From Psychroflexus longus (GTDB lineage Bacteria > Bacteroidota > Bacteroidia > Flavobacteriales > Flavobacteriaceae), in the NCBI RefSeq assembly GCF_020164595.1, contig NZ_JAIQZE010000003.1, positions 124,001 through 188,000 on the forward strand: a DNA stretch of 64,000 nucleotides, read 5' to 3'. Shown here piece by piece: positions 7,583-20,441 of this stretch. The notes below the pieces were generated by a model that saw nothing but the letters and a program-made list of their open reading frames with translations, was not told the DNA's origin and did not search any database. Made by a program: the position numbers and the translations under genes. How positions within the stretch are numbered: position 1 is the first letter of the stretch; every line of letters starts with the position of its first letter.

Positions 7583-9559
7583 ATGAACTTTGAAGATCCT
7601 ACTTTATCCAAAGAACAACATATAAATCTATTCAAAAGTATTTTGAAGCCACGACTTATTGAGGAAAAAATGCTTGTGCTTTTAAGACAAGGCAAAATCT
7701 CGAAGTGGTTTTCAGGAATTGGACAAGAGGCGATAGCTGTAGGAGTAACAAAATCTTTGAAATCTGAAGAATACATCCTACCAATGCATAGAAATCTTGG
7801 AGTGTTCACTGAAAGAAAAATTCCTTTGCAACGCCTGTTTTCTCAATGGCAAGGAAAATTAAACGGATTCACTAAGGGTAGAGATCGCAGTTTTCATTTT
7901 GGAACACAGGAGTATAAAATTATTGGAATGATTTCTCATCTCGGCCCACAACTAGGAGTCGCCGACGGTATCGGTCTAGCACATAAATTGAAAAACGAAA
8001 AAGCTGTAACCGCTGTATTTACTGGTGAAGGAGGAACAAGTGAAGGTGATTTTCATGAAGCACTCAATGTCGCTTCAGTATGGGACCTTCCGGTATTGTT
8101 TTGTGTGGAAAATAATGGTTACGGACTTTCTACGCCAACCAGTGAGCAGTTTAAGTGCGAACATATTGCCGATAAAGCCATAGGCTATGGAATGGAGTCT
8201 CACATTATCGATGGTAACAACATCGTAGAGATTTATACTAAAGTGAATGAGATTGCAGAAAGTGTTAGGGAAAATCCCAGACCTATACTTCTTGAATTTA
8301 AAACCTTCAGAAGAAGAGGACACGAGGAAGCTAGCGGAACAAAATATGTTCCAGCTGAACTCATGGAACATTGGGAAAAGTTAGATCCTGTTGATAATTA
8401 TGAATTATTTATCCTGGAATCTGAATTCTTAAATCGCGATGAAATTGATTCCATTAAAGCTGAAATAAAATCAGAAATAGATAGACATCTTAAAATAGCT
8501 AATGAGGAACTCAATGTTGAAGCTGATGAAACTAAAGAATTAAACGATGTTTTTAAAGGTTATAAGTTTAAAACTCAAATACCTTCTTCCAAAAAAACAG
8601 AATTACGCTTTATCGACGCTATTTCTGATGGCTTGAAACAAAGCATGGAAAAACATGAGGATCTAGTCATTATGGGGCAGGATGTAGCTGAGTATGGAGG
8701 AGTTTTTAAAATTACAGACGGATTTGTTGAGAAATTCGGAAAAAAAAGAGTGAGAAATACACCTATATGTGAGTCGGCTATCATAACAACAGCGATGGGG
8801 CTATCTATCAAAGGAATGAAGTCGGTCGTAGAAATGCAGTTTAGTGATTTTGTAAGTTCCGGATTCAATCCTATAGTCAACTACTTAGCCAAAGTGCACT
8901 ATCGTTGGGGACAAAATGCAGATGTAGTGATTCGTATGCCTTGCGGTGCAGGAGTAGGAGCAGGACCTTTTCACAGTCAGACCAACGAAGCCTGGTTTAC
9001 CAAAACTCCTGGCTTAAAAGTCGTCTATCCTTCAACCCCTCAAGAAGCTAAAGGTTTATTGATAGCCTCTATCGAAGATCCAAATCCAGTCTTATTTTTT
9101 GAACATAAAGCTTTATACCGAAGCATAAGAGGAGAGGTTTCCGATGATTATTTTACAATTGAATTGGGGAAAGCCAATTTGATACGTGAAGGTAATGATC
9201 TTACTATCATTACTTATGGTGCGGCAGTTCATTGGGCTACTGAACTACTTGAAAAATATCCTGAAATTTCAGCAGAACTGATTGATTTAAGGACATTGTC
9301 ACCACTGGATGAAGAGGCTATTTTCAACTCTGTCAAGAAAACAGGAAAGGTTATTATCCTTCAGGAGGACTCCATATTTGGAGGGATTGCTTCAGATATT
9401 TCAGCTTTGATCTCCGAAAATTGCTTTGAATATTTAGACGCGCCAATCAAACGTGTGGCAAGTTTACCAACCCCGATTCCTTTCTCCAAAAATCTTGAAG
9501 ATCAATACTTAGGGAAAGTCAAATTTGAGAGTGAATTACTTGCATTAAATAAATATTAA
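7583..9559 (+). CDS. Fused 2-oxo acid dehydrogenase E1 (alpha plus beta)
   Basis: A 658-residue thiamine-diphosphate enzyme in which the E1 alpha chain (about residues 1-310) and E1 beta chain (about 340-658), separate in many bacteria, are one polypeptide. The ThDP/Mg motif begins GEGGTSEGDF at 148 and ends with Asn-Asn at 177-178. The beta half shows MGQDVAEYGGVFKITDGF, TPICESAIITTAMGLS and PNPVLFFEHKALYRS. The substrate is probably branched-chain 2-oxo acids or pyruvate; the beta part resembles branched-chain types used to make primers for iso-fatty acids. No E2 or E3 gene is adjacent, so the rest of the complex is elsewhere. Confidence 0.9.
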   Translation: MNFEDPTLSKEQHINLFKSILKPRLIEEKMLVLLRQGKISKWFSGIGQEAIAVGVTKSLKSEEYILPMHRNLGVFTERKIPLQRLFSQWQGKLNGFTKGRDRSFHFGTQEYKIIGMISHLGPQLGVADGIGLAHKLKNEKAVTAVFTGEGGTSEGDFHEALNVASVWDLPVLFCVENNGYGLSTPTSEQFKCEHIADKAIGYGMESHIIDGNNIVEIYTKVNEIAESVRENPRPILLEFKTFRRRGHEEASGTKYVPAELMEHWEKLDPVDNYELFILESEFLNRDEIDSIKAEIKSEIDRHLKIANEELNVEADETKELNDVFKGYKFKTQIPSSKKTELRFIDAISDGLKQSMEKHEDLVIMGQDVAEYGGVFKITDGFVEKFGKKRVRNTPICESAIITTAMGLSIKGMKSVVEMQFSDFVSSGFNPIVNYLAKVHYRWGQNADVVIRMPCGAGVGAGPFHSQTNEAWFTKTPGLKVVYPSTPQEAKGLLIASIEDPNPVLFFEHKALYRSIRGEVSDDYFTIELGKANLIREGNDLTIITYGAAVHWATELLEKYPEISAELIDLRTLSPLDEEAIFNSVKKTGKVIILQEDSIFGGIASDISALISENCFEYLDAPIKRVASLPTPIPFSKNLEDQYLGKVKFESELLALNKY

Positions 9560-9619
9560 AAAAATCTTAAAACAAAAGTTTCGCCGTATCTTAGATACTG
9601 AATTATAAAATTCAATATT

Positions 9620-9781
9620 ATGATACGATGGATAATCACGTTTCTTATTATTGCTTTAATAGCAGCTGTTTTAGGGTTTGGCGGAATTGCTGAAGGTGCT
9701 GCAGATATTGCAAGAATAATCTTTTACATTTTTATTATCTTTTTTGTTATTTCTTTAATTGGAAAGCTATTCAGACGATAA
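9620..9781 (+). CDS. DUF1328-family small membrane protein (YtjA-like)
   Basis: A 53-residue gene shorter than usual ORF cut-offs. It has two hydrophobic segments (about 4-20 and 31-48) separated by the family motif [15 protein letters not shown], which defines DUF1328 (YtjA). It ends KLFRR followed by TAA. The family is linked to the envelope and stress in other bacteria, but no mechanism is known. A perfect 12-bp terminator hairpin starts 11 bases after the stop, supporting a real monocistronic gene. Confidence 0.85.
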
Positions 9782-9792
9782 GAAAAATAATT

Positions 9793-9834
9793 AAATCCGT
9801 AGTTTTGTTAAATCAATAACTACGGATTTTTAAT
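9793..9834 (+). terminator. Strong intrinsic terminator after the DUF1328 gene
   Basis: A perfect 12-bp inverted repeat AAATCCGTAGTT/AACTACGGATTT with a 13-base loop, followed by a T-rich run. It separates the DUF1328 gene from the lipocalin/OmpA pair. Confidence 0.85.
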
Positions 9835-9851
9835 AATTTTAAATACTACTT

Positions 9852-10325
9852 ATGAAATACACACTTACATTGATTGTCGCTTTTCTACTGACTTCCTGTG
9901 GAGCTTCATATCAAGCAAATCAAGTCGAGAAAGAATTTAAAGGCGACTGGATTTTAGAATCAGTTACCTATCCAGATTCTTCTGGTTTGTTTGATGTCGA
10001 ACTTTTCAATGTTGCAGATGCTTCTTGTTTTGATAATTCAACTTGGAAATTTATTCCAAACAATAGTACAGGAAGTTTCATCCTGGATGGAAATGATTGT
10101 ACTAAAACCGAGCAGCAATTTACCTGGTATATTGATAAAGCTACAGCTCAGAACATCAATCCTGAAATGCTATTAAAAGTTATTACAGGACAAAAAGCTA
10201 GAAAAGTCGATATAGGTACAAGGATAAAAATTAAATCTTTGCTAGCGGATCAAATGATTTGGGAACAAAGCGTTATGTTTAATGGTAAGCAAATAAAAAT
10301 ACTAATGACATTTTCAAAATTTTAA
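9852..10325 (+). CDS. Lipocalin-like lipoprotein
   Basis: A 157-residue lipoprotein with a signal peptide and lipobox (LLTSCGAS, Cys16). The mature part opens with FKGDWILESVTYPD, the start of lipocalin-like domains common in Bacteroidota, and continues as an all-beta pattern with STWKFIPNNSTGSFILDG. It is probably anchored to the outer membrane and may bind a hydrophobic ligand; none is known. It precedes the OmpA-family lipoprotein by 2 bases and is cotranscribed with it, as often seen for these two families. Confidence 0.8.
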   Translation: MKYTLTLIVAFLLTSCGASYQANQVEKEFKGDWILESVTYPDSSGLFDVELFNVADASCFDNSTWKFIPNNSTGSFILDGNDCTKTEQQFTWYIDKATAQNINPEMLLKVITGQKARKVDIGTRIKIKSLLADQMIWEQSVMFNGKQIKILMTFSKF

Positions 10326-10327
10326 AC

Positions 10328-11023
10328 ATGAAAAACTTTCAAAGTAAATTTTTAATAATTTTAGTGGCTTTCGCCTTCTTGTTTAGTTCTTGCGAAGCAA
10401 CAAAGAATACAAACAAAACTCAACGTGGTGGTGCTATTGGCGCAGCAAGTGGTGCTGTAATTGGTGGTGTAATTGGAAACAATACTGGTGATGGTGATAA
10501 CTCTGTACTTGGAGCAATTATTGGCGGAGTAGTTGGCGGTGCAGCTGGTGCTTACATCGGAAACCGAATGGATAAACAAGCCAAAGAAATACAGGAAGAG
10601 ATTCCTGGAGCAGAAGTAACAAGAGTAGGCGAAGGAATTAATGTAACTTTTGATGAAAATTCTGGAGTTTATTTTGCGACTAATAAATCTAATATCGAAG
10701 GAAAATCTGAAATTTCATTATTGAAACTTATCAATATTTTTCAGAAGTATCCTAAAACTAATATTATTGTAGAAGGGCACACAGATTCATCAGGTAGTGA
10801 TTCTTACAATATGAATTTATCTAAAGAACGTGCTCAGTCGGTATCTAACTACTTAGCCAGTAATGGAATTGACAGTTCAAGAATTCAAACCAATTGGTTT
10901 GGCGAAGATCAACCAAAATTTAATAATTCAACAGCGGAAGGTCGTTCAAAAAACAGAAGGGTAGAATTGGCCATTGTTGCCAATGAAGAATTAAAAGAAG
11001 AAGCTAAACAAAAGGCTGAATAA
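10328..11023 (+). CDS. OmpA-family lipoprotein with glycine-zipper
   Basis: A 231-residue outer-membrane lipoprotein (lipobox FLFSSCEAT). After the Cys comes a glycine-zipper region (about residues 37-78, GGAIGAASGAVIGGVIGN and a second copy GAIIGGVVGGAAGAYIGN), then an OmpA C-terminal peptidoglycan-binding domain with VEGHTDSSGSDSYNMNLSKE and the RRVELAI end. It would tether the outer membrane to the cell wall. A hairpin terminator follows 22 bases after the stop and ends this unit just before the type III PKS locus. Confidence 0.92.
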   Translation: MKNFQSKFLIILVAFAFLFSSCEATKNTNKTQRGGAIGAASGAVIGGVIGNNTGDGDNSVLGAIIGGVVGGAAGAYIGNRMDKQAKEIQEEIPGAEVTRVGEGINVTFDENSGVYFATNKSNIEGKSEISLLKLINIFQKYPKTNIIVEGHTDSSGSDSYNMNLSKERAQSVSNYLASNGIDSSRIQTNWFGEDQPKFNNSTAEGRSKNRRVELAIVANEELKEEAKQKAE

Positions 11024-11045
11024 ACCTTAAAAAATCAACATGGAC

Positions 11046-11074
11046 AATCCTAATGCTACATTAGGATTTTTTTT
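11046..11074 (+). terminator. Intrinsic terminator after the OmpA-family gene
   Basis: A perfect 10-bp stem AATCCTAATG/CATTAGGATT with loop CTA, followed by an eight-T run. It insulates the polyketide locus from the upstream unit. Confidence 0.9.
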
Positions 11075-11079
11075 ATGCC

Positions 11080-11087
11080 TAAATTTC
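11080..11087 (+). promoter_or_regulatory. Near-consensus -7 box before the polyketide locus
   Basis: TAAATTTC differs from TAnnTTTG only in the last base and lies 4 bases before the ATG at 11092, right after the terminator. If used, the first mRNA of the locus would be leaderless. Weak by sequence alone. Confidence 0.3.
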
Positions 11088-11091
11088 AGCA

Positions 11092-12207
11092 ATGAAAATT
11101 TACGATGTAATTATTATAGGAGGAGGTCTGGCAGGTTTGACTTTAGCTATAGATTTGTCTTCGAGTGGATTTGAAGTCCTACTCATTGAGAAAGACGAAT
11201 ATCCCAAGCACAAAGTATGTGGAGAATATGTTTCCAATGAAGTTTTACCTTATTTGGATCGTCTTGGAATTCACATTAATCAAACTAAGGCAGACCAAAT
11301 TAATAAGTTAACTTTAAGTAACCGAAATGGCAAATCTGTAAATATCGATTTACCTCTAGGTGGCTTTGGAATGTCACGATACGCTTTGGATCATCTACTG
11401 TATGAGAAAGCAAAATCTAATGGTGTCCAGTTCAAGTTTGAAACTGTTATGGGTGTTGAATTTGAAAATGAACAATTTTGTATTACAGCCAACCAGCAAA
11501 ATTATTATTCTGAATTAGCCATTGGTAGTTTCGGAAAGCGATCGACACTGGATAAGAAACTAGACAGAGATTTCATCCATAACAAGACTCCTTGGATTGG
11601 AATTAAAGCGCATTATAAGAATGATGATTTCCCTGAAGGTGAAGTACAACTGCATAATTTTGAAGGCGGGTATTGTGGGCTTTCTAAAACAGAAACAGGT
11701 GCTGTCAATTTTTGCTATTTAGCGCATTACGATAGCTTCAAAAAGGAAGGTTCTGTTGAAAATTTCAATCAAAATGTTTTAACCAAAAATCCCAAACTGA
11801 AATCATTTCTAATGAATTCTGAAATGCTTTTTGATAAGCATTTAGCGATTTCACAGGTGTCCTTTCAAAATAAAAATGCTGTAGAAAATCACATGTTGAT
11901 GTCTGGAGATTCTGCAGGACTCATTCATCCACTTTGTGGTAATGGCATGGCTATGGCCATACATTCAGCTAAACTACTTTCAGTAGAAATTAAAAATTAC
12001 AAAATTCATAAGAATAGAAATCAGTTGGAAGAAAATTATACGTCAATTTGGAAACAGACTTTTCGCAAAAGACTTATTTTTGGATCGGTATTTCAAAAGA
12101 TACTTTTACAACCCAAACTAACCAATTTAGGGATGTCATTAGTTTCAAAATCTCCATTTTTACTAAAGAAAATGATTCAGCAAACCCACGGTAAACCTAT
12201 TTCATGA
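11092..12207 (+). CDS. FAD-dependent oxidoreductase/monooxygenase of the type III PKS locus
   Basis: A 371-residue flavoprotein of the geranylgeranyl-reductase/aromatic-hydroxylase group. It has an N-terminal FAD Rossmann motif (IIGGGLAGLTLAID, Gly10/12/15), the group's KVCGEYV at 41-47, and the second FAD motif GDSAGLIHPLCGNGMAMA from 272. In the Streptomyces srs operon a flavoprotein hydroxylates the alkylresorcinol made by the type III PKS; the same role is inferred here. A reductase acting on an unsaturated chain is the alternative. Its last four bases (ATGA) overlap the methyltransferase start, so the two are coupled. Confidence 0.85.
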   Translation: MKIYDVIIIGGGLAGLTLAIDLSSSGFEVLLIEKDEYPKHKVCGEYVSNEVLPYLDRLGIHINQTKADQINKLTLSNRNGKSVNIDLPLGGFGMSRYALDHLLYEKAKSNGVQFKFETVMGVEFENEQFCITANQQNYYSELAIGSFGKRSTLDKKLDRDFIHNKTPWIGIKAHYKNDDFPEGEVQLHNFEGGYCGLSKTETGAVNFCYLAHYDSFKKEGSVENFNQNVLTKNPKLKSFLMNSEMLFDKHLAISQVSFQNKNAVENHMLMSGDSAGLIHPLCGNGMAMAIHSAKLLSVEIKNYKIHKNRNQLEENYTSIWKQTFRKRLIFGSVFQKILLQPKLTNLGMSLVSKSPFLLKKMIQQTHGKPIS

Positions 12208-12914
12208 AGCACATTTCTACAAAAAAACGAAGTCGCGAAGATGAAATTATGGATGAGTTTGACTTTAAGGGAGAAGAGCTAAAAAAAGTGCTTCGAACCA
12301 TTGATAACATTAACACCAAGCTTGGCGGGCATCGTGTGACCAGAAAAGGGATTCAGGAATTACTAGTAAACAACTCTAAGAAACATCTGGTCATTGCAGA
12401 CTTGGGTTGTGGAAGCGGTGATGCCTTAAGGCAAATCTCCAAATGGGCGAAAAATCGAGGCATCAACGTTCAACTCATAGGTATAGATGCCAATCCTCAT
12501 ACGATCGAAATTGCCAGAGAATGGTCGAGAGATTATAAGAATATTTCATACCGAGTCATTGATGTCTTTAGTGAAGATTTTGAGGACTTTGAAGCCGATA
12601 TCATAACGTGTTGTCTTACTCTTCATCATTTTGACGATCAATCCATAGCAAAACTTTTACCGATTCTTTCGGAAAAAGCAAGTCTGGGATTGGTTATTAA
12701 TGATTTGCATCGACATAAATTAGCTTATCAATTATTCAAGCTATATTGTTCAGTCTTTGTAAATTCAGACATTGCAAGAAAAGATGGATTGACTTCAATT
12801 CTCAGAGGATTCAAGTCAGAAGATCTTGATAATTTCGCCAAACAACTAAATTTAAAGCACCACATAACATGGTATTGGGCTTTTCGATACCAGTGGATCA
12901 TATATAGCTCATGA
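12204..12914 (+). CDS. SAM-dependent methyltransferase of the type III PKS locus
   Basis: Class I methyltransferase of 236 residues. The SAM site IADLGCGSGDALRQ is at about residues 65-78 (DLGCGSG 66-72), followed by the acidic strand-2 end GIDANP and the post-IV region CCLTLHHFDD. The probable target is a hydroxyl or ring carbon of the polyketide product, by analogy with SrsB. It overlaps both neighbours by ATGA 4-base junctions, which ties flavoprotein, methyltransferase and PKS into one translationally coupled trio. Confidence 0.85.
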   Translation: MKHISTKKRSREDEIMDEFDFKGEELKKVLRTIDNINTKLGGHRVTRKGIQELLVNNSKKHLVIADLGCGSGDALRQISKWAKNRGINVQLIGIDANPHTIEIAREWSRDYKNISYRVIDVFSEDFEDFEADIITCCLTLHHFDDQSIAKLLPILSEKASLGLVINDLHRHKLAYQLFKLYCSVFVNSDIARKDGLTSILRGFKSEDLDNFAKQLNLKHHITWYWAFRYQWIIYSS

Positions 12915-13963
12915 GTGTAAAAATAGAAACAGTAGCGACAGAAACACCTCAATACTACAAAGAAACCAAAGATATTATTCCTTTTGTTGAGATGTGGCTT
13001 GCTGATGAAGATGAAAGGTTCCGAAGGAAAGTAATCAAAATTTATGAAGGCGCTCAAGTCGATAAGCGGTATTCCATCATGGATCCTGAAGAGGTGTTTG
13101 AAGCCACCTCTTTTGAAGATAAAAACCGAATCTATACACGGGAAGCCAAAATCTTGGGCAAAAAAGTGTTAGAAAAAGCATTAGATCAGGCGGGATGGTC
13201 ACCACAAAGTTTGGACTACATTATCACTGTAAGTTGCACCGGTATTATGATTCCATCATTAGATGCTTTTCTTATCAACGATTTGGATTTGAGACAAGAT
13301 ATCATAAGACTTCCAGTGACCGAAATGGGCTGCGCAGCGGGGATTTCAGGGATGATTTACGCCAAGCAGTTTTTACAGGCCAATCCTGACAAAAGAGCGG
13401 CGATAGTTTCATTTGAAGCGCCAACTGCTACCTTTCAGCTCAGTGATAAGTCAATGGCCAATATGGTGAGTTCTGCCATTTTTGGAGACGGATCTGCATG
13501 TGTGTTGATGAGTTCTGAAGAGACATGCACGGGTCCGAAAATTCTTTGGGAATCTATGTATCATTTTTACAATGACACGCACATGATGGGTTTTGACTTG
13601 ACCAATTCTGGTCTTAAAATGGTACTCGATATAGACGTTCCTGAGAAAATAAGTAGCCATTTTCCAGCAATCATCCATCCATTTTTAAAAGATAATAACA
13701 CCAGCATAGAAGATATCAATCACCTTATTTTTCATCCTGGAGGCAAAAAAATCATCAATACTGTGGAAGCTCTTTTTGGAGCGATGGGCAAAAATATTGA
13801 CGATACTAAAGAAGTATTAAGACTATTTGGAAATATGAGCAGCGCTACAGTACTCTATGTATTGGAACGCATGCTTCAAAAAGATATCAAAAAAGGAGAA
13901 AAAGGCTTGATGCTAAGTTTTGGACCTGGCTTTTCAGCACAACGCATTCTTTTGGAATGGTAG
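12911..13963 (+). CDS. Type III polyketide synthase (chalcone/stilbene synthase superfamily)
   Basis: A 350-residue homodimeric-type condensing enzyme that extends an acyl starter with malonyl-CoA and cyclises it. The full catalytic triad is visible: Cys141 in VTEMGCAAGI, His275 in LIFHPGGKK and Asn308 in LFGNMSSATVLYVLE. The cyclisation-loop signature appears as SFGPGFSAQ near the end. The substrate is not readable, but bacterial relatives with methyltransferase and flavoprotein partners make alkylresorcinols or alkylpyrones from fatty acyl starters. A 78-base gap follows before the FabL-like gene, so the downstream genes could be a second transcript. Confidence 0.93.
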   Translation: MSVKIETVATETPQYYKETKDIIPFVEMWLADEDERFRRKVIKIYEGAQVDKRYSIMDPEEVFEATSFEDKNRIYTREAKILGKKVLEKALDQAGWSPQSLDYIITVSCTGIMIPSLDAFLINDLDLRQDIIRLPVTEMGCAAGISGMIYAKQFLQANPDKRAAIVSFEAPTATFQLSDKSMANMVSSAIFGDGSACVLMSSEETCTGPKILWESMYHFYNDTHMMGFDLTNSGLKMVLDIDVPEKISSHFPAIIHPFLKDNNTSIEDINHLIFHPGGKKIINTVEALFGAMGKNIDDTKEVLRLFGNMSSATVLYVLERMLQKDIKKGEKGLMLSFGPGFSAQRILLEW

Positions 13964-14041
13964 TTTGCACATAAAAGTCCGTTTATTTTCTACTGAATTT
14001 GATTCAAGTAGTAAGATTTAATTTTTAAAGACATTCAGCTT

Positions 14042-14824
14042 ATGACCAACCAATCACTTAAACATTTCGCTTTAGTTCTAGGAGGAAGCCAGGGTTTAGG
14101 ATATGCTTCAGCATTGAAGTTGGCTCAAAACGGTTGGAATTTACTCATCATCCATAGAGATAGAAGAAGTGATCTACCTGACATTGAAGCTAGATTTGAT
14201 TTTATTAGGCGATGTGGAGTCGATCTAAAAACATTTAATCTGGACGCCACAAATTCAGAAAAAAGAAAAGAATTTATTGATCAACTTCCAGAATTATTAG
14301 GCGAATCTGGAAAAATTAAACTTCTGCTTCATAGCATTGCTAAAGGAAACCTGAAAGCCATGACCGGAGACTCCCCACTCAATCAAACGGACTTGCAAAT
14401 CACCGCTAACGCGATGGCCTACAGTTTTTATGACTGGTCTAAGGATATTGTGGAAGCAGGTTTCTTAGCAAAACAGACCAAACTTTTAGCCTTTACCAGC
14501 GAAGGAAATCAACGGGTTTGGAAACATTATGCTGCCGTTTCTGTGGCCAAAACAAGCCTTGAAACCCTAATGAAATATATGGCAAAAGAATTTGCTGAGT
14601 ATGGTATTACTGCGAACTGTATTCAGGCTGGGATGGTAGAAACCCAATCTTTCCAGATGATTCCGGGTCATGAACAATTGAAAGAAGCTGCTGTAAAGCG
14701 AAACCCTTTTCAGCGACTAACTCAGCCAGAAGATATTGCCAATGTGGTTTATTTATTAAGTTTAGAAGAATCCAATTGGATCAATGGCTCTGTCATCAAA
14801 GCCGATGGTGGAGAAAGTTTATAA
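14042..14824 (+). CDS. FabL-like enoyl-ACP reductase (SDR with YxxxxxxK)
   Basis: An SDR-fold protein of 260 residues. The cofactor loop is LGGSQGLGYASA at 14-25 and the conserved LLLHSIAKG is at 94-102. The catalytic pair is Tyr163 and Lys170, six residues apart (HYAAVSVAK), the spacing of enoyl-ACP reductases FabI/FabL rather than the YxxxK of ketoreductases. The C-terminal half (MAKEFAEYGITANCIQAG, then NGSVIKADGGESL) matches FabL-type layout. It would reduce enoyl-ACP with NAD(P)H. It lies 11 bases before the dehydratase start. Confidence 0.8.
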   Translation: MTNQSLKHFALVLGGSQGLGYASALKLAQNGWNLLIIHRDRRSDLPDIEARFDFIRRCGVDLKTFNLDATNSEKRKEFIDQLPELLGESGKIKLLLHSIAKGNLKAMTGDSPLNQTDLQITANAMAYSFYDWSKDIVEAGFLAKQTKLLAFTSEGNQRVWKHYAAVSVAKTSLETLMKYMAKEFAEYGITANCIQAGMVETQSFQMIPGHEQLKEAAVKRNPFQRLTQPEDIANVVYLLSLEESNWINGSVIKADGGESL

Positions 14825-14835
14825 GTTATCAACGC

Positions 14836-15276
14836 ATGAAATCATCCAAAATCATTTCGAAATTACCCTATCAGGAGCCTTTTCTTTATGTAAAAAGCAT
14901 TGATGAAGTTTCCGAGGACTCTATAAAAGGAAGTTATACCTTCAAAGCTTCGTCCTGGTTCTATAAAGGACATTTCAAAAATAATCCCATTACGCCAGGA
15001 GTAATTTTGACTGAATGTGCCGCTCAAATTGGTTTGGCAAGTTTTGGGTTTTACCTTTTATCTCAACAAAGAGATATTGATCTTGAGCAAGTGAAATTGG
15101 CCATGACGTCTACCAATGTTGAATTTTTAAAACCAGTTTTACCTGGAGATAAAGTGGTGGTAGAAGCAGAAAAAATATATTTTAGATTTAATAAATTGAA
15201 AGTCTCCGTCAAGATGTTTGATGTGTCTGGAAACCTAGTACTTCGCGGAGAGCTGGCCGGAGTTATTTTACCTTAG
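14836..15276 (+). CDS. FabZ-like 3-hydroxyacyl-ACP dehydratase (hot-dog fold)
   Basis: A 146-residue hot-dog protein. The active-site motif GHFKNNPITPGVILTE puts His46 and Glu60 at the FabZ spacing, so dehydratase chemistry is plausible; isomerase or thioesterase use is possible. I chose ATG 14836 because an earlier in-frame ATG at 14776 adds 20 residues that overlap the reductase gene and look unlike the family (rich in W, R and H). The KS gene follows after 2 bases. Confidence 0.87.
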   Translation: MKSSKIISKLPYQEPFLYVKSIDEVSEDSIKGSYTFKASSWFYKGHFKNNPITPGVILTECAAQIGLASFGFYLLSQQRDIDLEQVKLAMTSTNVEFLKPVLPGDKVVVEAEKIYFRFNKLKVSVKMFDVSGNLVLRGELAGVILP

Positions 15277-15278
15277 CT

Positions 15279-16553
15279 ATGGAAAAAAGAAGAGTCGTTA
15301 TCACCGGAATGGGAATCGTTGCTCCTAACGCTACTGGTCTTTCTCAGTTTGAGCAAGCTATAAAAGCAGGTAAAAGCGGGATTGAATTTCACCAGCAACT
15401 AAAAGATTTAAATTTTAGTTGTCAGATTGGTGGTATGCCAAAAGTCACTCAGGAAGTTTTGGACAACAACTTCACAGCTTTAGAACAACGCGGTCTTTTG
15501 GCGTCGGGATTAATTTATGGAGGAATTGCTGGTCAGGAAGCCTGGAAAGATGCTCAACTGGAAATTGGGGATGAACTCGATACAGATACAGGAATCATTT
15601 TCGGGACAGGTGTTCTTGGCGTTGAGAAATTGAGAGAAGCCTTCCATAAAATCGATGACAAGCAAGTTAGAAGATTGGGGAGTACTAGCGTTTTACAAAC
15701 GATGGCGAGTGGAATCAGTGCCTTTTTATGCGGAAAACTGGGCTGTGGGAATCAGGTGACTTCCAACTCCTCGGCCTGTACAACAGGAACTGAAGCTTTA
15801 TTGATGGGTCATGAACGCATCCAATACGGCAAAGCTAAGCGCATGCTGGTAGGAAGTTGCAGTGACTCCGGACCTTATGTCTGGGGTGGTTTTGATGCCT
15901 TAAGAATTTTACCTTATCAATATAATGATACTCCAGAATTGGCGTCTCAGCCCATGTCGGAGTCAGCTTCAGGCTTTGTGCCTTCAAGTGGGGCAGGGGC
16001 ATTAATGTTGGAAAGTTTGGAATCTGCTTTAGAAAGAGGCGCAAACATTTATGCCGAAGTTTTAGGCGGACATGTCAATTCAGGTGGTCAGCGAGAACAA
16101 GGAAGTATGACGGCTCCCAACTCCACGGCGGTTAAAAGCTGTATATCGCAAGCATTAATAGATGCAGAAGTAAATTCAGAAGAAATTGACCTTATTAACG
16201 GACATTTGACTGCGACAGCTATGGATGCCACTGAAATTAAGAATTGGTCGCAGGCTTTAAGGCTTTCAGGAAAAGAATTCCCATATATCAATTCACTAAA
16301 AAGCCATGTTGGTCATGCTTTGGCGGCGGCCGGTAGTCTTGAACTGGTGAGTTCTGTATTGGAAATTAAAAATGGATTTATGTTTCCAAATCTAAATTGT
16401 GAAACGATTCATCCTGATATTGTGAAACTAATCGATGAAGAAAAAATTCCAAGAGAACTTATTGAAAAAAAGATAAATCTATTAGCAAAAGCTAGTTTTG
16501 GATTCGGGGATGTCAACGCCTGTGTCATTTTAAAATCGTATACAAATGAATAA
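15279..16553 (+). CDS. Beta-ketoacyl-ACP synthase (FabF-like)
   Basis: A 424-residue elongating ketosynthase. Active-site residues are all visible: Cys167 in SNSSACTTGTEA, His309 in INGHLTATAMDATE, and Lys341/His346 in SLKSHVGHALAAAG. The KS N-terminal signature RRVVITGMGIVAPNATG is present. The usual HGTGT around the first His is HLTAT, a mild departure that may change the acyl preference. It would extend acyl chains on the locus-encoded ACP. It overlaps the next small gene by 8 bases, so that gene belongs to the same operon. Confidence 0.92.
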   Translation: MEKRRVVITGMGIVAPNATGLSQFEQAIKAGKSGIEFHQQLKDLNFSCQIGGMPKVTQEVLDNNFTALEQRGLLASGLIYGGIAGQEAWKDAQLEIGDELDTDTGIIFGTGVLGVEKLREAFHKIDDKQVRRLGSTSVLQTMASGISAFLCGKLGCGNQVTSNSSACTTGTEALLMGHERIQYGKAKRMLVGSCSDSGPYVWGGFDALRILPYQYNDTPELASQPMSESASGFVPSSGAGALMLESLESALERGANIYAEVLGGHVNSGGQREQGSMTAPNSTAVKSCISQALIDAEVNSEEIDLINGHLTATAMDATEIKNWSQALRLSGKEFPYINSLKSHVGHALAAAGSLELVSSVLEIKNGFMFPNLNCETIHPDIVKLIDEEKIPRELIEKKINLLAKASFGFGDVNACVILKSYTNE

Positions 16554-16776
16554 ACAACAACTCAAAAAGCGCTATTGGATTTTTGGCGGATTAGGAACTG
16601 GTTTGCTGGGTTTCGGACTTTCTGCGTTGGTAGAAAGTGGATTCATGAAGCACAGCGAAGCTCCGGCCTGGCAGTGGATATTGGCCGGGACTTTATCTTT
16701 AATATTGATCATGACAGGCATCAACTTTTTGTTTGAGAGTTTTAGAAGTAAACAAGAATTGAACAAGAATAATTAA
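16546..16776 (+). CDS. Small two-helix membrane protein within the PKS/FAS locus
   Basis: A 76-residue protein with two hydrophobic helices (about 11-29, IFGGLGTGLLGFGLSALV, and 44-64, WILAGTLSLILIMTGINFLF) and a charged tail (RSKQELNKNN). I do not recognise a family. Its start lies inside the KS gene (8-base overlap), and it sits between KS and ACP, so it may anchor the enzymes or handle a lipid product at the membrane. That role is inference from position only. Confidence 0.75.
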   Translation: MNKQQLKKRYWIFGGLGTGLLGFGLSALVESGFMKHSEAPAWQWILAGTLSLILIMTGINFLFESFRSKQELNKNN

Positions 16777-16873
16777 GATTTTTGCTTTTCTCTATTCTGA
16801 ATTTGATAGCGGAAAGCTTGATGTTTTGAGACTTGATTATAAAAACTAATTAGTAAATTGCTTTCAAAAATAT

Positions 16874-17128
16874 ATGACTTCTGAAGCTATTCAAGAACGA
16901 CTAAAAACTATAGTTAAGCCCTATATCAACAATCAAGAGAATTTCGAAAAATTATCAAAAGAGTCAGATTTCATCAACGACCTTGAAATCAATTCGGCCA
17001 ATTTGGTAGATATTGTCCTAGATGTGGAGGATGAATTTGATATCCGAATTGAAAATGACGATATGGAAAAAATGACTAAAGTAGAAGCAACAGTTGAGGT
17101 GATTCAGAAGAAACTTTCTCAAAAATGA
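16874..17128 (+). CDS. Acyl carrier protein of the locus
   Basis: An 84-residue acyl carrier protein. Helix II carries the modification site with Ser41 in EINSANLVDIVLDVEDEF; the usual DSL is NSA here, but the Ser and the following acidic helix are kept. The FDI turn and the acidic run fit the fold. It overlaps the phosphopantetheinyl transferase gene by ATGA, so the carrier and its likely activating enzyme are made together. A 97-base gap separates it from the small membrane gene and could hold its own promoter; no exact TAnnTTTG box is seen there. Confidence 0.9.
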   Translation: MTSEAIQERLKTIVKPYINNQENFEKLSKESDFINDLEINSANLVDIVLDVEDEFDIRIENDDMEKMTKVEATVEVIQKKLSQK

Positions 17129-17646
17129 TCGGAAACGACATTGTTGATTTAAACAAAGCAAATCAGGATTCTAATATTTTCCGACCGCGATATCTTGAAA
17201 AAGTTTGTTCACCTGAAGAAATTGAACTTGTATTTTCGAGCTCAAATGCAATCACAACCTTTTGGAGAATCTGGACGATGAAGGAAAGCGTCTATAAAGC
17301 CTTTCAAAGAAAATTTCAATTTAAAACTGTTTTTAATCCATTTGCTTTTGTTTGTCAGTTTGAGGATTCAGACTCTGGTAAAGTTAGTTTCAAAGCCCAT
17401 CAACTTTTCACGAAAACAATTCAAACTGAAGAATTTATCTATTCTGAAGTGATTAATTCCCGAGCAAAGCAAAGATTTTTTGGCTCTGCATCTGATTTTT
17501 TGCAAAAACTAAAACCAGAATTGAATCTACAATCGCATCCAGAACTCACCAAAACAAGAGAAGGTCTTCCAGTTTTGAATTTACCAAATAAGACATTAGC
17601 TATTTCTAAAACTCATCATGGAAACTTCCAAGCCTTTCAGTATTAA
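17125..17646 (+). CDS. 4'-phosphopantetheinyl transferase
   Basis: A 173-residue enzyme that attaches the phosphopantetheine arm to ACPs. The AcpS/Sfp superfamily motifs are present: the N-terminal IGNDIVDL (Asp5, Asp8) and the WTMKESVYKAF motif at 50-60 with its catalytic Glu and Lys. Length and the opening motif are nearer AcpS-like than Sfp-like members. Starting inside the ACP gene marks it as the dedicated transferase of the cluster. It ends 62 bases before the next gene, which has its own promoter box. Confidence 0.9.
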   Translation: MIGNDIVDLNKANQDSNIFRPRYLEKVCSPEEIELVFSSSNAITTFWRIWTMKESVYKAFQRKFQFKTVFNPFAFVCQFEDSDSGKVSFKAHQLFTKTIQTEEFIYSEVINSRAKQRFFGSASDFLQKLKPELNLQSHPELTKTREGLPVLNLPNKTLAISKTHHGNFQAFQY

Positions 17647-17695
17647 TTATTTAATAAAGATTTGGTGTGTGGTACAATTCATGCTTATTGTTTAT

Positions 17696-17703
17696 TATAT
17701 TTG
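17696..17703 (+). promoter_or_regulatory. -7 box, leaderless spacing, for the secreted protein at 17709
   Basis: TATATTTG, an exact match 5 bases before ATG 17709. The closeness places the expected start of transcription at or next to the ATG and argues against the longer TTG-type start at 17667. Confidence 0.55.
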
Positions 17704-17708
17704 TTAAC

Positions 17709-18353
17709 ATGAGTTATTTTAAATATATTTTTTCACTGTTTTTATTGAGTTCGATAGTGCTTAATGCTCAAAATCGGGATTTTCCAACCCGAGGGTCAGA
17801 AGTGATCAATAATCCAAAATTCAAATCTTCGAATTCTAGCTCAGGTTTCGGTCGACTTGGCGTTCCTAATCGAAGCAAAGTCAAAGATGTTTTTGCTAAA
17901 AATGAAGAAGGTGTAGATTTCAAACCCAAAACTCAGTATACAAATCCAAGTGAAATTTGGACAGATAAGCTTAACAAGAAGCCTGAAGATGAAAACAAAG
18001 GCATGAAAGAGGAGTGGGCTGAGGATATGAATCTTGGTGACTTTGTAACCTCATCAGATAAAATGACATTCATTTGTCGTGATCATATGATGTTTGATGG
18101 TGATAGAGTACAGATCAAGGTAAATGGCCAAGTCATTGTTCAAAACTTACTTTTGGAAAATGCTTACAAAGAGATTACTATACCACTTGAAATAGGTTTT
18201 AATAAAATTGAATTTATAGCTCTCAATCAAGGAGATGCTGGTCCAAATACAGCGGAATTAAAAATCATTGATGGTTCCAAGTTATTATCTAGAAATGTGT
18301 GGAATTTGTTGACTGGCGTAAAAGCGAGTACAGTCATTGTTAAAAACGAATAA
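17709..18353 (+). CDS. Secreted protein of unknown function
   Basis: A 214-residue protein starting MSYFKYIFSLFLL, with a signal peptide likely cut after LNAQ. The mature part is polar (FPTRGSEVINNPKFK, then a Lys/Glu-rich section) and ends in a beta-rich domain (about residues 110-205) with HMMFDGDRVQIKVNGQVIV and IPLEIGFNKIEFIALNQGDAG, a small carbohydrate- or ligand-binding-like fold. I do not know the family. The upstream in-frame start at 17667 would add 14 residues and destroy the signal-peptide pattern. It abuts recQ head-on with no base between the stop codons. Confidence 0.8.
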   Translation: MSYFKYIFSLFLLSSIVLNAQNRDFPTRGSEVINNPKFKSSNSSSGFGRLGVPNRSKVKDVFAKNEEGVDFKPKTQYTNPSEIWTDKLNKKPEDENKGMKEEWAEDMNLGDFVTSSDKMTFICRDHMMFDGDRVQIKVNGQVIVQNLLLENAYKEITIPLEIGFNKIEFIALNQGDAGPNTAELKIIDGSKLLSRNVWNLLTGVKASTVIVKNE

Positions 18354-20441
18354 TTACTTTTCCAAAACGGCTAGTGCCAATCTTATTTTCTCATAGCTCA
18401 ATTTTTCATCTAAAGCTTCATAAATAGGTTTTAAAGCTCCTTCATGAGTAATGCTTTTAAGACAATTTTCTACCATTTTCAATTCAGGATTTGATACGAG
18501 CTCACTTAAATCTAAGGGTTTGCCTTTGGCTACTAAGGTGCATAAATGTGAAACTATAGTCGTAGATTTTAGATTTCGTTCTTTAGCTATTTCATCAATG
18601 CTTTTTCCTCCTTTATAAAGTTCGTAAGTTTCATCATAGGTAGATACTTTTTTCTTTCTCTTTTTCTTGTTGAATAACTTAATTACGTAAATAAACTCAT
18701 CTGCATATTTTTCAGCTTTCAAACTGTTCACACCGCTTATAGATTTGAATTCTTGTTCGCTTTGAGGCCTTTCTCTTTCTATTTCCTTGAGTGTTGCATC
18801 ATTGAAAACAAGATAAGGAGGAATATTTTCTTCTACAGAAATTTCCATCCTCAATTGCTTTAACTGATTGAATAAATTGGAAGTTTTTGTAGTCTTTCTA
18901 CTTTCTATAAATCCAGGCTGATCGGCCTTAGGTTTAGTAAGCCAAACTTGTTCGTTTTCAAAAAGTACTTTTTTCGCTAAAGGCGTAAACTCCAAGGCAT
19001 TTTTTCTGTGGAATGCAATTTCGATGTAGCCTAAATTGATAAGCTGTAATATATAATGTTGCCAGTCCTTCCAGCTGATGTTAGTTCCGATTCCGAAAGT
19101 TTTGAGTTCTTGATAACCTTTATCGTAAATGCCAGCATTTTTGGCTCCTCTCAAAATATCTATAATGACACTAATGGGTTCCTTTTGCTTTACCCTTGCG
19201 ACAGCAGAAAGCGCTTTTTGTGCTATTACTTTAGCATCTATAAATCGTGGTGGATTTTTACATACATCACAAAACCCGCAATTTTCAGTGAGATGTTCTC
19301 CAAAATAACCTAGTAAAATTCTTCTTCTGCAGGAAGTAGCTTCAGCAAATTGCTTCATTCGCTCCAGCTTAGCTTCCTGAACTTCTTTATTTTTTCCATC
19401 TTCGATAAAACGTTTGTACTGAATAACGTCGGCATACGAATGAAACATTAGAGCATTGGCGGTAAGGCCATCCCTTCCAGAACGGCCGATTTCCTGGTAA
19501 TAGCTTTCTATGTTTTTGGGCATATTATAATGAATTACCCAGCGCACATTTGATTTATCAATTCCCATCCCAAAAGCAACCGTAGCACAGATGATTTGGG
19601 TTTTGTCGTAAACAAATTCTTCCTGAATTTTAGATCTTGTTTCAGAATCTAGGCCGGCGTGATAGGCTTTGGCTTTAAAGCCTTTTTGAGTCAAGTCTTT
19701 TGCCAGTTTTTCAGTGGATTTCCGACTTAAGCTGTAGACAATTCCTGCTTCATCTTTTCTTTTGAGCAAGAAATTTTCAATTTGTTTCATGCGCTCGCTT
19801 GCAGATCTGACTTCCAAAAAAATATTTTCTCTGTCGAATGAAGAAAGAAACACTTTTGCTTTCGGAATGCTGAGTTGCTTTAAAATATCTTTTCTTGTGG
19901 TTTTATCTGCTGTTGCCGTCAAAGCTAAAACCGGTGTGTTGGGTAAAGATCTTTTTAAAAAACCTAACTGCTGATACGAAGGTCTGAAGTCGTGACCCCA
20001 TGACGATATACAATGTGCTTCATCCACAGCAACACAACTAATATAGTTTTCATTTAATATTTCCTGAAGTCCGGATAGGCTTTCCGGAGCAGTATACAGG
20101 AGTTTAAGTTCTTTATTGGCGACTTTAGATTTGATGATTTGTTGAGTCTCTGGAGTCTGTGTAGAATTAAAAAAATCTGCTTCAATTCCATTGCTTTTAA
20201 GGCCATCTACCTGATCTTTCATCAGAGCGATAAGCGGTGAAATGACAAGAGTAGTTCCCTTAAATTCTAAAGCTGGTAACTGAAAACACATCGATTTTCC
20301 ACCACCTGTGGGCATAACGACAAGTGCATCGTTTTTATTAAGAACATGTTCAATAATTTCAGACTGATTCTTTCTGAAACTATCATAACCAAAATAAGTT
20401 TTTAGGTGTGAAAGGCTGTTCTGAATCAGTTCTAAGGACAT
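18354..20441 (-). CDS. recQ: RecQ ATP-dependent DNA helicase
   Basis: A 695-residue superfamily-2 helicase that unwinds DNA in recombinational repair. Walker [19 protein letters not shown] and the DEAH box [18 protein letters not shown] are followed by motif [12 protein letters not shown]. The RQC zinc site appears as [12 protein letters not shown] with CGFCDVC. After an HRDC-like region ([16 protein letters not shown]) there is a C-terminal helix-turn-helix tail (about 600-695) with [20 protein letters not shown], typical of longer Bacteroidota RecQ proteins. No -7 box of the exact form was found just upstream. Confidence 0.96.

Follow-up and report, generated by a model that had tools for sequence, protein, structure and literature searches.

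A type III polyketide synthase trio joined to a discrete type II acyl cassette in a conserved operon of Psychroflexus longus and other Flavobacteriaceae

Operons in which a type III polyketide synthase (PKS) stands with an S-adenosylmethionine-dependent methyltransferase (MT) and an FAD oxidoreductase have been described as srsABC in Streptomyces griseus, pkqABC in Mycobacterium smegmatis and Streptomyces MNU77, hidABC in cyanobacteria, and as trios in planctomycetes; their products are methylated alkylresorcinols or quinones (PMC9927152, PMC10896814, PMC8086630; these and the papers below are cited from excerpts of their text). The same enzyme types open a nine-gene locus at positions 11092–17646 on the plus strand of the DNA considered here, a stretch of 64,000 nucleotides from Psychroflexus longus, family Flavobacteriaceae (contig NZ_JAIQZE010000003.1, positions 124,001 to 188,000), which as a whole is called the window. 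The order of the first three genes, FMO-MT-PKS (FMO, FAD-dependent monooxygenase/oxidoreductase), is unlike that of the srs, pkq and hid trios. The srs, pkq, hid and planctomycete operons have three core genes, and the excerpts mention no private set of ketosynthase (KS), dehydratase (DH), acyl carrier protein (ACP) and 4'-phosphopantetheinyl transferase (PPTase), whereas in P. longus such a cassette is present.

Other described systems share part of this arrangement. In the Azotobacter ars operon (ArsABCD), too, type III PKSs are encoded together with a fatty acid synthase (FAS) dedicated to them and a PPTase (PMC4824345), but ArsA is a type I FAS, according to the title of a reference cited there, whereas the proteins of the P. 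longus locus are discrete type II proteins of 76–424 amino acids, with no multi-domain type I FAS, and are accompanied by the MT and the flavoprotein. In the cylindrocyclophane system a free-standing ACP and upstream elongation likewise lead to a type III PKS, CylI, and to an alkylresorcinol (PMC8086630); there, elongation is carried out by type I PKSs, and CylI is only a 134-bit relative of the window PKS. In dialkylresorcinol (dar) operons the ring is made by the KSIII-type enzyme DarB, in place of the type III PKS found here, and at E 1e-100 no DarB was matched in the window genome. The parts of the P. longus locus are of known kinds; what is new is that a type III PKS trio has been combined with a type II cassette, how often this combination occurs, and that the cassette is portable. 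In a search of openly licensed papers, no description of this gene set or of its product was recognised in the excerpts returned, and the operon is widespread and, it appears, uncharacterised.

The trio and the cassette are inherited together. In a sample of 149 Flavobacteriaceae genomes (one per genus by tally), 48 encode a PKS ortholog (63–100% identity, E ≤ 1.9e-150), and a further 8 have weak PKS matches only (25–33% identity). A KS ortholog (E ≤ 1e-90) was found in 47 genomes, all of them among the 48, and in none of the other 101. In a second genome set, KS was present in 26 of 26 genomes with the hybrid PKS and in 0 of 9 Flavobacteriaceae lacking any PKS match, while two of 45 genomes with a remote PKS have a 49–50% identical KS elsewhere. 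Both samples together give KS in 73 of 74 hybrid-PKS genomes. In one genome (G144) the PKS lies on contig C1 and the KS on contig C33, with both halves retained. An earlier note, made from the sequence of this stretch alone, had read the locus as a single pathway and proposed conservation across Bacteroidota as a check on it; within the family, these counts bear that reading out.

Gene order is near-constant, FMO-MT-PKS-(SDR)-DH-KS-ACP(-PPT) (SDR, short-chain dehydrogenase/reductase), with a few insertions or missing genes. Over 70 loci, profiles matched FMO and MT in all 70, KS in 67, DH in 65, ACP in 64, SDR in 63 and PPTase in 32; these loci hold two duplicate pairs (L109/L131 and L040/L139) and hence 68 distinct ones (82 different among 84 rows), two of them (L065 and L145) end at contig edges, and in L137 and L138 the ACP was not listed by the open reading frame (ORF) caller. 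Counted from its first ATG, the next cassette gene begins inside the PKS gene or at most 10 nt after it in 37 of 70 loci, 11–120 nt after it in 28 and further away in 5; with the longest starts, 41 of 70 overlap or lie within 10 nt. An identical 7-nt overlap between PKS and the next gene recurs in 21 of 70 loci, 19 times at ATG and twice at GTG. The 78-nt gap between PKS and SDR in the window belongs to the middle class. Other genes of the window overlap, FMO/MT, MT/PKS and ACP/PPTase by 4 nt each and KS/TM2 (the seventh gene, described below) by 8 nt. Many overlaps in the locus maps are overstated, because the simple script that called the ORFs took the earliest possible start of each.

Pairwise distances among the PKSs correlate with those among the KSs (r 0.81, 67 loci), and at the loci beside a conserved E1 gene r was 0.88 (50 loci). 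For PKS or KS versus E1 r was 0.68 (51 loci for PKS), and versus the adjoining OmpA gene 0.75 (47 loci for PKS); each correlation lay above all 199 permutations. On the PKS tree at least four changes of the upstream neighbourhood are counted, with the order of the operon unchanged. The hybrid PKSs cluster together, apart from 14 remote PKSs (SH-aLRT 100); this and the other trees are quick trees with SH-aLRT support only and long remote branches.

All nine ORFs are present, intact, consecutive and co-directional, as the earlier note had described them, and Pfam backs the family of eight. The FMO (11092–12207), of the geranylgeranyl-reductase/PHBH superfamily (FAD_binding_3, PF01494, E 3.1e-14), is a putative ring hydroxylase and in the NCBIfam scan scored 111.5 bits against TIGR02032, below the cut-off of 158.8. 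The class I MT (12204–12914; Methyltransf_25, PF13649, E 2.9e-13) reached 132.4 bits against NF004851 (cut-off 243). The PKS (12911–13963) possesses Chal_sti_synt_N/C domains (PF00195/PF02797) with Cys141, His275 and Asn308, and is 96% identical to the P. lacisalsi PKS and 91% identical to the P. curvus PKS. Its neighbour at 14042–14824 is a FabL-like SDR (adh_short_C2), probably an enoyl reductase, which carries the Y-x6-K motif typical of FabL/FabI-type enoyl reductases and scored 137.9 bits against the FabL model NF005975 (cut-off 328). The FabZ-like hotdog 3-hydroxyacyl DH (14836–15276; FabA-like, PF07977, E 1.8e-14) likely starts at the ATG at 14836, from which His46 and Glu60 are numbered, and reached 66.3 bits with the FabZ model NF000582 (cut-off 113). 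The FabF-like KS (15279–16553; ketoacyl-synt N/C, PF00109/PF02801; Cys167, His309, His346) scored 256 bits against the FabF model TIGR03150 (cut-off 494). TM2 (16546–16776), a small membrane protein of 76 amino acids with two helices judged by eye, is the gene without a family match in the Pfam and NCBIfam scans. The type II ACP (16874–17128; PP-binding, PF00550, E 2e-4; Ser41 in an NSA motif) gave 50.7 bits against NF002148 (cut-off 71), and the PPTase (17125–17646; ACPS, PF01648, E 1.8e-14; WTMKES motif) gave 23 bits against the AcpS model (cut-off 60).

The catalytic residues named earlier for PKS, KS, DH, ACP and PPTase are all in place. Among relatives, the Cys-His-Asn triad of the PKS is invariant in 70 of 70 sequences, the KS triad is kept in 45 of 45 aligned orthologs, the ACP serine in 41 of 41, and the DH His/Glu pair and the SDR Y-x6-K motif each in 43 of 43. 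A separate 44-row PKS set had been selected beforehand by length and by the letters GCAAG (the motif with the Cys) and is no test of the triad; the PKS profile used for locus annotation was built from those same rows. Since all NCBIfam scores fall below the model cut-offs, the cassette is set apart from housekeeping fatty acid synthesis, and by this measure its proteins differ from FabF, FabZ, FabL, AcpP and AcpS. The only other KS match in the window genome at a threshold of E 1e-5 is 31% identical to the operon KS, and the operon PPTase is one of two PPTase matches in that genome.

From this gene content we consider it probable that the locus encodes one pathway of two modules, in which the cassette would provide a dedicated acyl-ACP, the type III PKS would take it as starter, and the MT and FMO would decorate the ring. 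In the pathway as we infer it, including its direction of flow, the acyl-ACP hand-off, the type of ring, a quinone as end product and the role in the cell, the PPTase would arm the ACP, on which the KS, a ketoreductase of the host FAS, the DH and usually the FabL-like enoyl reductase would build or extend a chain. The PKS would load this acyl-ACP, add malonyl-CoA units and close a ring, most likely a resorcinol, whereupon methylation by the MT and hydroxylation or oxidation by the FMO would give a methylated alkyl-hydroquinone or quinone-type membrane lipid. For the loading step there is precedent: hexanoyl-ACP is a reported substrate of germicidin synthase and of SCO7671 (PMC6274091), the latter encoded in a pkq-like operon (PMC9927152), and in the ars operon the FAS serves ArsB and ArsC (PMC4824345). 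The last steps are modelled on the trio, which makes quinones in Streptomyces and mycobacteria (PMC9927152). The srsABC-like trio proposed in the earlier note stands at the level of enzyme types, a type III PKS, MT and FMO being recognised in 70 of 70 loci; as to its suggestion that the starter chain is built or modified on site, the two halves do form one conserved unit, with which "built" and "modified" agree alike.

Several observations weigh against this pathway. No ketoreductase is encoded among the nine genes. One of the 48 PKS genomes of the family sample, G138, lacks a KS match and keeps FMO-MT-PKS-SDR. Of 69 loci, 7 are without the SDR, which requires at least five changes on the PKS tree, and one of these seven (L059) keeps an SDR remnant. 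Relocation of the missing gene is ruled out in the six SDR-less genomes tested (excluding that of L059), where the best other SDR match is below 70 bits or absent, versus 228–574 bits in four SDR-bearing genomes. The FabL-like reductase is dispensable in the family, and therefore lineages probably vary in how saturated the chain is, or the host takes care of this step. L068 lacks the DH, its SDR and KS leaving no space for such a gene between them. The PPTase was matched in the 32 loci counted above, with at least five changes on the PKS tree (32 of 66 scored loci). Because SDR, DH and PPTase are patchy, chain chemistry may vary among loci. Finally, the solved chain closest to the PKS is M. 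tuberculosis Pks11 (181 bits), named in the PDB as an alpha-pyrone enzyme, which keeps a pyrone product in consideration, and the cassette is found without the hybrid PKS in some Bacteroidia, as set out below. Matches to TM2 are limited to Psychroflexus loci and two others (L073 and L140), and it is a Psychroflexus accessory. With TM2, PPTase and SDR varying among loci, a fixed set of nine genes is rejected; of the constant set with constant order that the earlier note had named as support for one pathway, the near-constant order remains.

Beyond this clade the two modules are found apart. Among 13 remote type III PKS loci of the phylum sample in which a PKS ORF was called (L126 gave none and is outside the 13), PKS, MT and FMO occur together in four (L122, L123, L125 and L127), and KS, DH and ACP profiles matched in none. 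At L079–L081 of the family sample the weak PKSs have no other matching gene beside them. Conversely, among 247 genomes of the class Bacteroidia, the cassette KS (E ≤ 1e-100) was detected in 16 and the PKS (E ≤ 1e-80) in 11, all 11 among the 16; since 5 of 16 cassette-bearing genomes are without this PKS, the function of the cassette is not tied to type III PKSs. Of the loci in those five genomes, L152 shows a dar operon, with DarB (634.8 bits, cut-off 550) and DarH, placed head to head with SDR-DH-KS-ACP-PPTase; L153, of the phylum sample, has the same layout, with DarB and DarH homologs 75% and 70% identical to those of L152 (only L152 was scanned with the DarB and DarH models, L153 being compared with it). 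In L161 the cassette is accompanied by a FabH-like KS and a FeeM-like N-acyl amino acid synthase (PF21926). At L160 and L162 it stands beside glycosyltransferase-type genes and at L158 and L159 beside housekeeping-type genes (unscanned neighbours named from sequence). L158 is a second cassette copy in G540, the genome of L161.

The KSs from all these contexts form one group against FabF (SH-aLRT 100), within which the dar-linked and type-III-linked KSs group together (SH-aLRT 98). Among 47 DarB genomes of the class sample, the cassette KS occurs in four (G127, G172, G245 and G593) and beside DarB only in G245, and the cassette is rejected as a general part of dar operons. The earlier note had held that halves lying apart in relatives would speak against one pathway; outside the clade this does occur, in the 4 of 13 remote loci and the 5 of 16 cassette genomes, and within it they co-occur. 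Because each module occurs without the other outside the clade, the simplest reading is that they have separate histories and were joined once in this clade. We read the cassette as a portable acyl-supply part that has been joined to several enzymes consuming acyl-thioesters.

The ring type bears on the alternatives. The pocket residues Phe228, Met237, Pro171 and Thr174 are strictly kept in 70 of 70 PKSs, and for this reason the family probably makes one ring type. Phe228 we tentatively place, by our own alignment, at the position of Trp281 in ArsB. A bulky residue there goes with resorcinol formation, as in ArsB, and Gly is found in the pyrone-forming ArsC (PMC9927152), so that Phe228, with that tentative mapping, leans weakly to resorcinol; in the Pks11 alignment Trp stands opposite Phe228, and bulk at this position is therefore not decisive. 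That the PKS makes an alkyl-alpha-pyrone, modified by the MT and flavoprotein and with the starter still supplied by the cassette, is possible but unlikely: the relationship to Pks11 and its Trp speak for it, while the weak lean of Phe228, bulky and unlike the Gly of ArsC, and the resorcinol-derived lipids made by PKS, MT and FAD-oxidoreductase trios in the hid, planctomycete and pkq systems (PMC9927152, PMC10896814, PMC8086630) speak for a resorcinol. Quite unlikely, in our estimate, is that the cassette acts after or beside the PKS and provides a second acyl chain to be joined to the phenolic ring, by the two-chain logic of dialkylresorcinols and flexirubins. The same cassette flanking DarB/DarH in two genomes and the grouping of KSs from the two contexts are consistent with it, but the Pfam and NCBIfam scans matched none of the nine genes to an acyltransferase family, and the 7-nt overlap of PKS and cassette, seen in 21 of 70 loci, agrees with a cassette that supplies the PKS, though it proves nothing.

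A PKS that uses malonyl or acetyl units only, like DpgA or tetrahydroxynaphthalene (THN) synthase, would make a small aromatic and leave the cassette to a separate lipid step. The best NCBIfam model for the PKS is indeed DpgA (NF042429), and a solved relative at 148.7 bits, 1u0m, is deposited as a putative polyketide synthase and is a THN synthase. However, the DpgA score of 169.9 bits is far below the cut-off of 425, none of the nine genes gave a match recognised as DpgB/C/D-type in the Pfam and NCBIfam scans, and the private KS set of 73 of the 74 hybrid-PKS genomes would be left unexplained, which makes this alternative very unlikely. Two unrelated pathways that are neighbours by chance would account for each half occurring without the other in distant Bacteroidota, but not for co-occurrence in 47 of 48 versus 0 of 101 genomes and in 26 of 26 further ones, for an order kept through at least four changes of the upstream neighbourhood, or for overlapping reading frames; we regard it as extremely improbable and reject it on co-inheritance. 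The acyl-ACP pathway set out above is the reading we retain. As to the earlier interpretation overall, one conserved unit with a trio that is srsABC-like by enzyme type has held, and the set has proved not to be a fixed nine.

The operon is preceded by a hairpin with a T-run at 11046–11068 (plus strand, 10 pairs), between an OmpA-family gene and the FMO, which fits the pattern of a Rho-independent terminator, as previously claimed. A hairpin with a T-run is found in 40 of the 45 OmpA-FMO gaps tested, and by eye such an element can be seen, with altered stems, in 9 of 9 Psychroflexus rows. In the window it ends 23 bases 5' of the FMO start. The 78-base (PKS-SDR) and 97-base (TM2-ACP) gaps have the lengths first given, and no terminator-like site was found on the plus strand in either. 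A Bacteroidetes-type promoter consensus had 0 matches in the region and 2 in the window versus 4.6 expected, and no RNA family reached the gathering threshold in 9500–18400. Just 5' of the ACP start, at 16845–16861, lies ACTAATTAGTAAATTGC, which matches nowhere else in the window (0.02 expected) and has hardly changed in several otherwise divergent Psychroflexus gaps; it is possibly an internal promoter or regulatory site. A second motif, TTCTGAATTTGAT, is present in both internal gaps, at 13991–14003 (one mismatch) and 16795–16807; it has 7 matches in the window versus 0.66 expected, the remaining five within ORFs.

Further upstream, at 7583–9559, a fused alpha/beta E1 2-oxoacid dehydrogenase is encoded, which is found in 51 of 70 hybrid loci; its adjacency is probably plain synteny. 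In 15 of 70 loci a conserved membrane protein of about 143 amino acids, M143, is encoded at the operon's 3' end; it has no Pfam or NCBIfam match (e.g. L033:12617–13048, oriented on PKS). A YceI-family lipid-binding-type protein (Pfam checked for two proteins) stands beside the operon in 15 of the first 48 loci and in more than one context (e.g. L046:6113–6655, likewise oriented); L068 carries both M143 and the YceI protein in a different context. A planctomycete type III PKS operon has been described with a gene for a lipid/isoprenoid-binding protein (PMC10896814), and by this analogy a lipid-binding partner for the operon is plausible. In a second context (L046, L050, L062, L067, L071 and L074) the operon lies 3' of fabH, accB and accC, named from their sequences, and so beside genes of malonyl-CoA supply, and in four loci of this context the PPTase is followed by an MMPL/RND lipid exporter-like protein of about 745 amino acids, likewise read from sequence (L046:12918–15155, oriented on PKS). 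A divergent version of the operon is seen in L156 and L157, in which the PKS is 50–52% identical and ACP and PPTase were not detected. Among the matches listed from a plasmid search no PKS came closer, the best reaching about 34% identity, and in a further search FMO relatives lacked an annotated type III PKS beside them in the two loci read. L150, a Streptomyces plasmid locus, matched the hybrid profiles for PKS (246 bits) and FMO (66 bits) and had no MT match.

Type III PKS clusters make up 9% of Flavobacteriaceae clusters in one survey (PMC7440613) and 10.74% of the biosynthetic clusters in another, of 2,680 Flavobacteriaceae-centred genomes, which, as far as its excerpts go, assigned no product to any of them (PMC10734526). 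With the operon in 48 of 149 genomes, many of the surveyed clusters are presumably this operon; if so, one compound could be assigned to a large share of them. The operon also bears on the question of acyl-ACP delivery from a discrete type II set to a type III PKS. The Flavobacteriaceae are menaquinone-using bacteria. It is our tentative suggestion, though an unlikely one, that the cassette hands acyl-ACP to the PKS for a polyketide quinone that would be a second redox lipid beside menaquinone in this family, and that the same cassette would be reused across the Bacteroidia, as an exchangeable acyl-supply part, to feed DarB and FeeM-like enzymes. The operon may also help to decide whether these bacteria keep a second quinone-like lipid.

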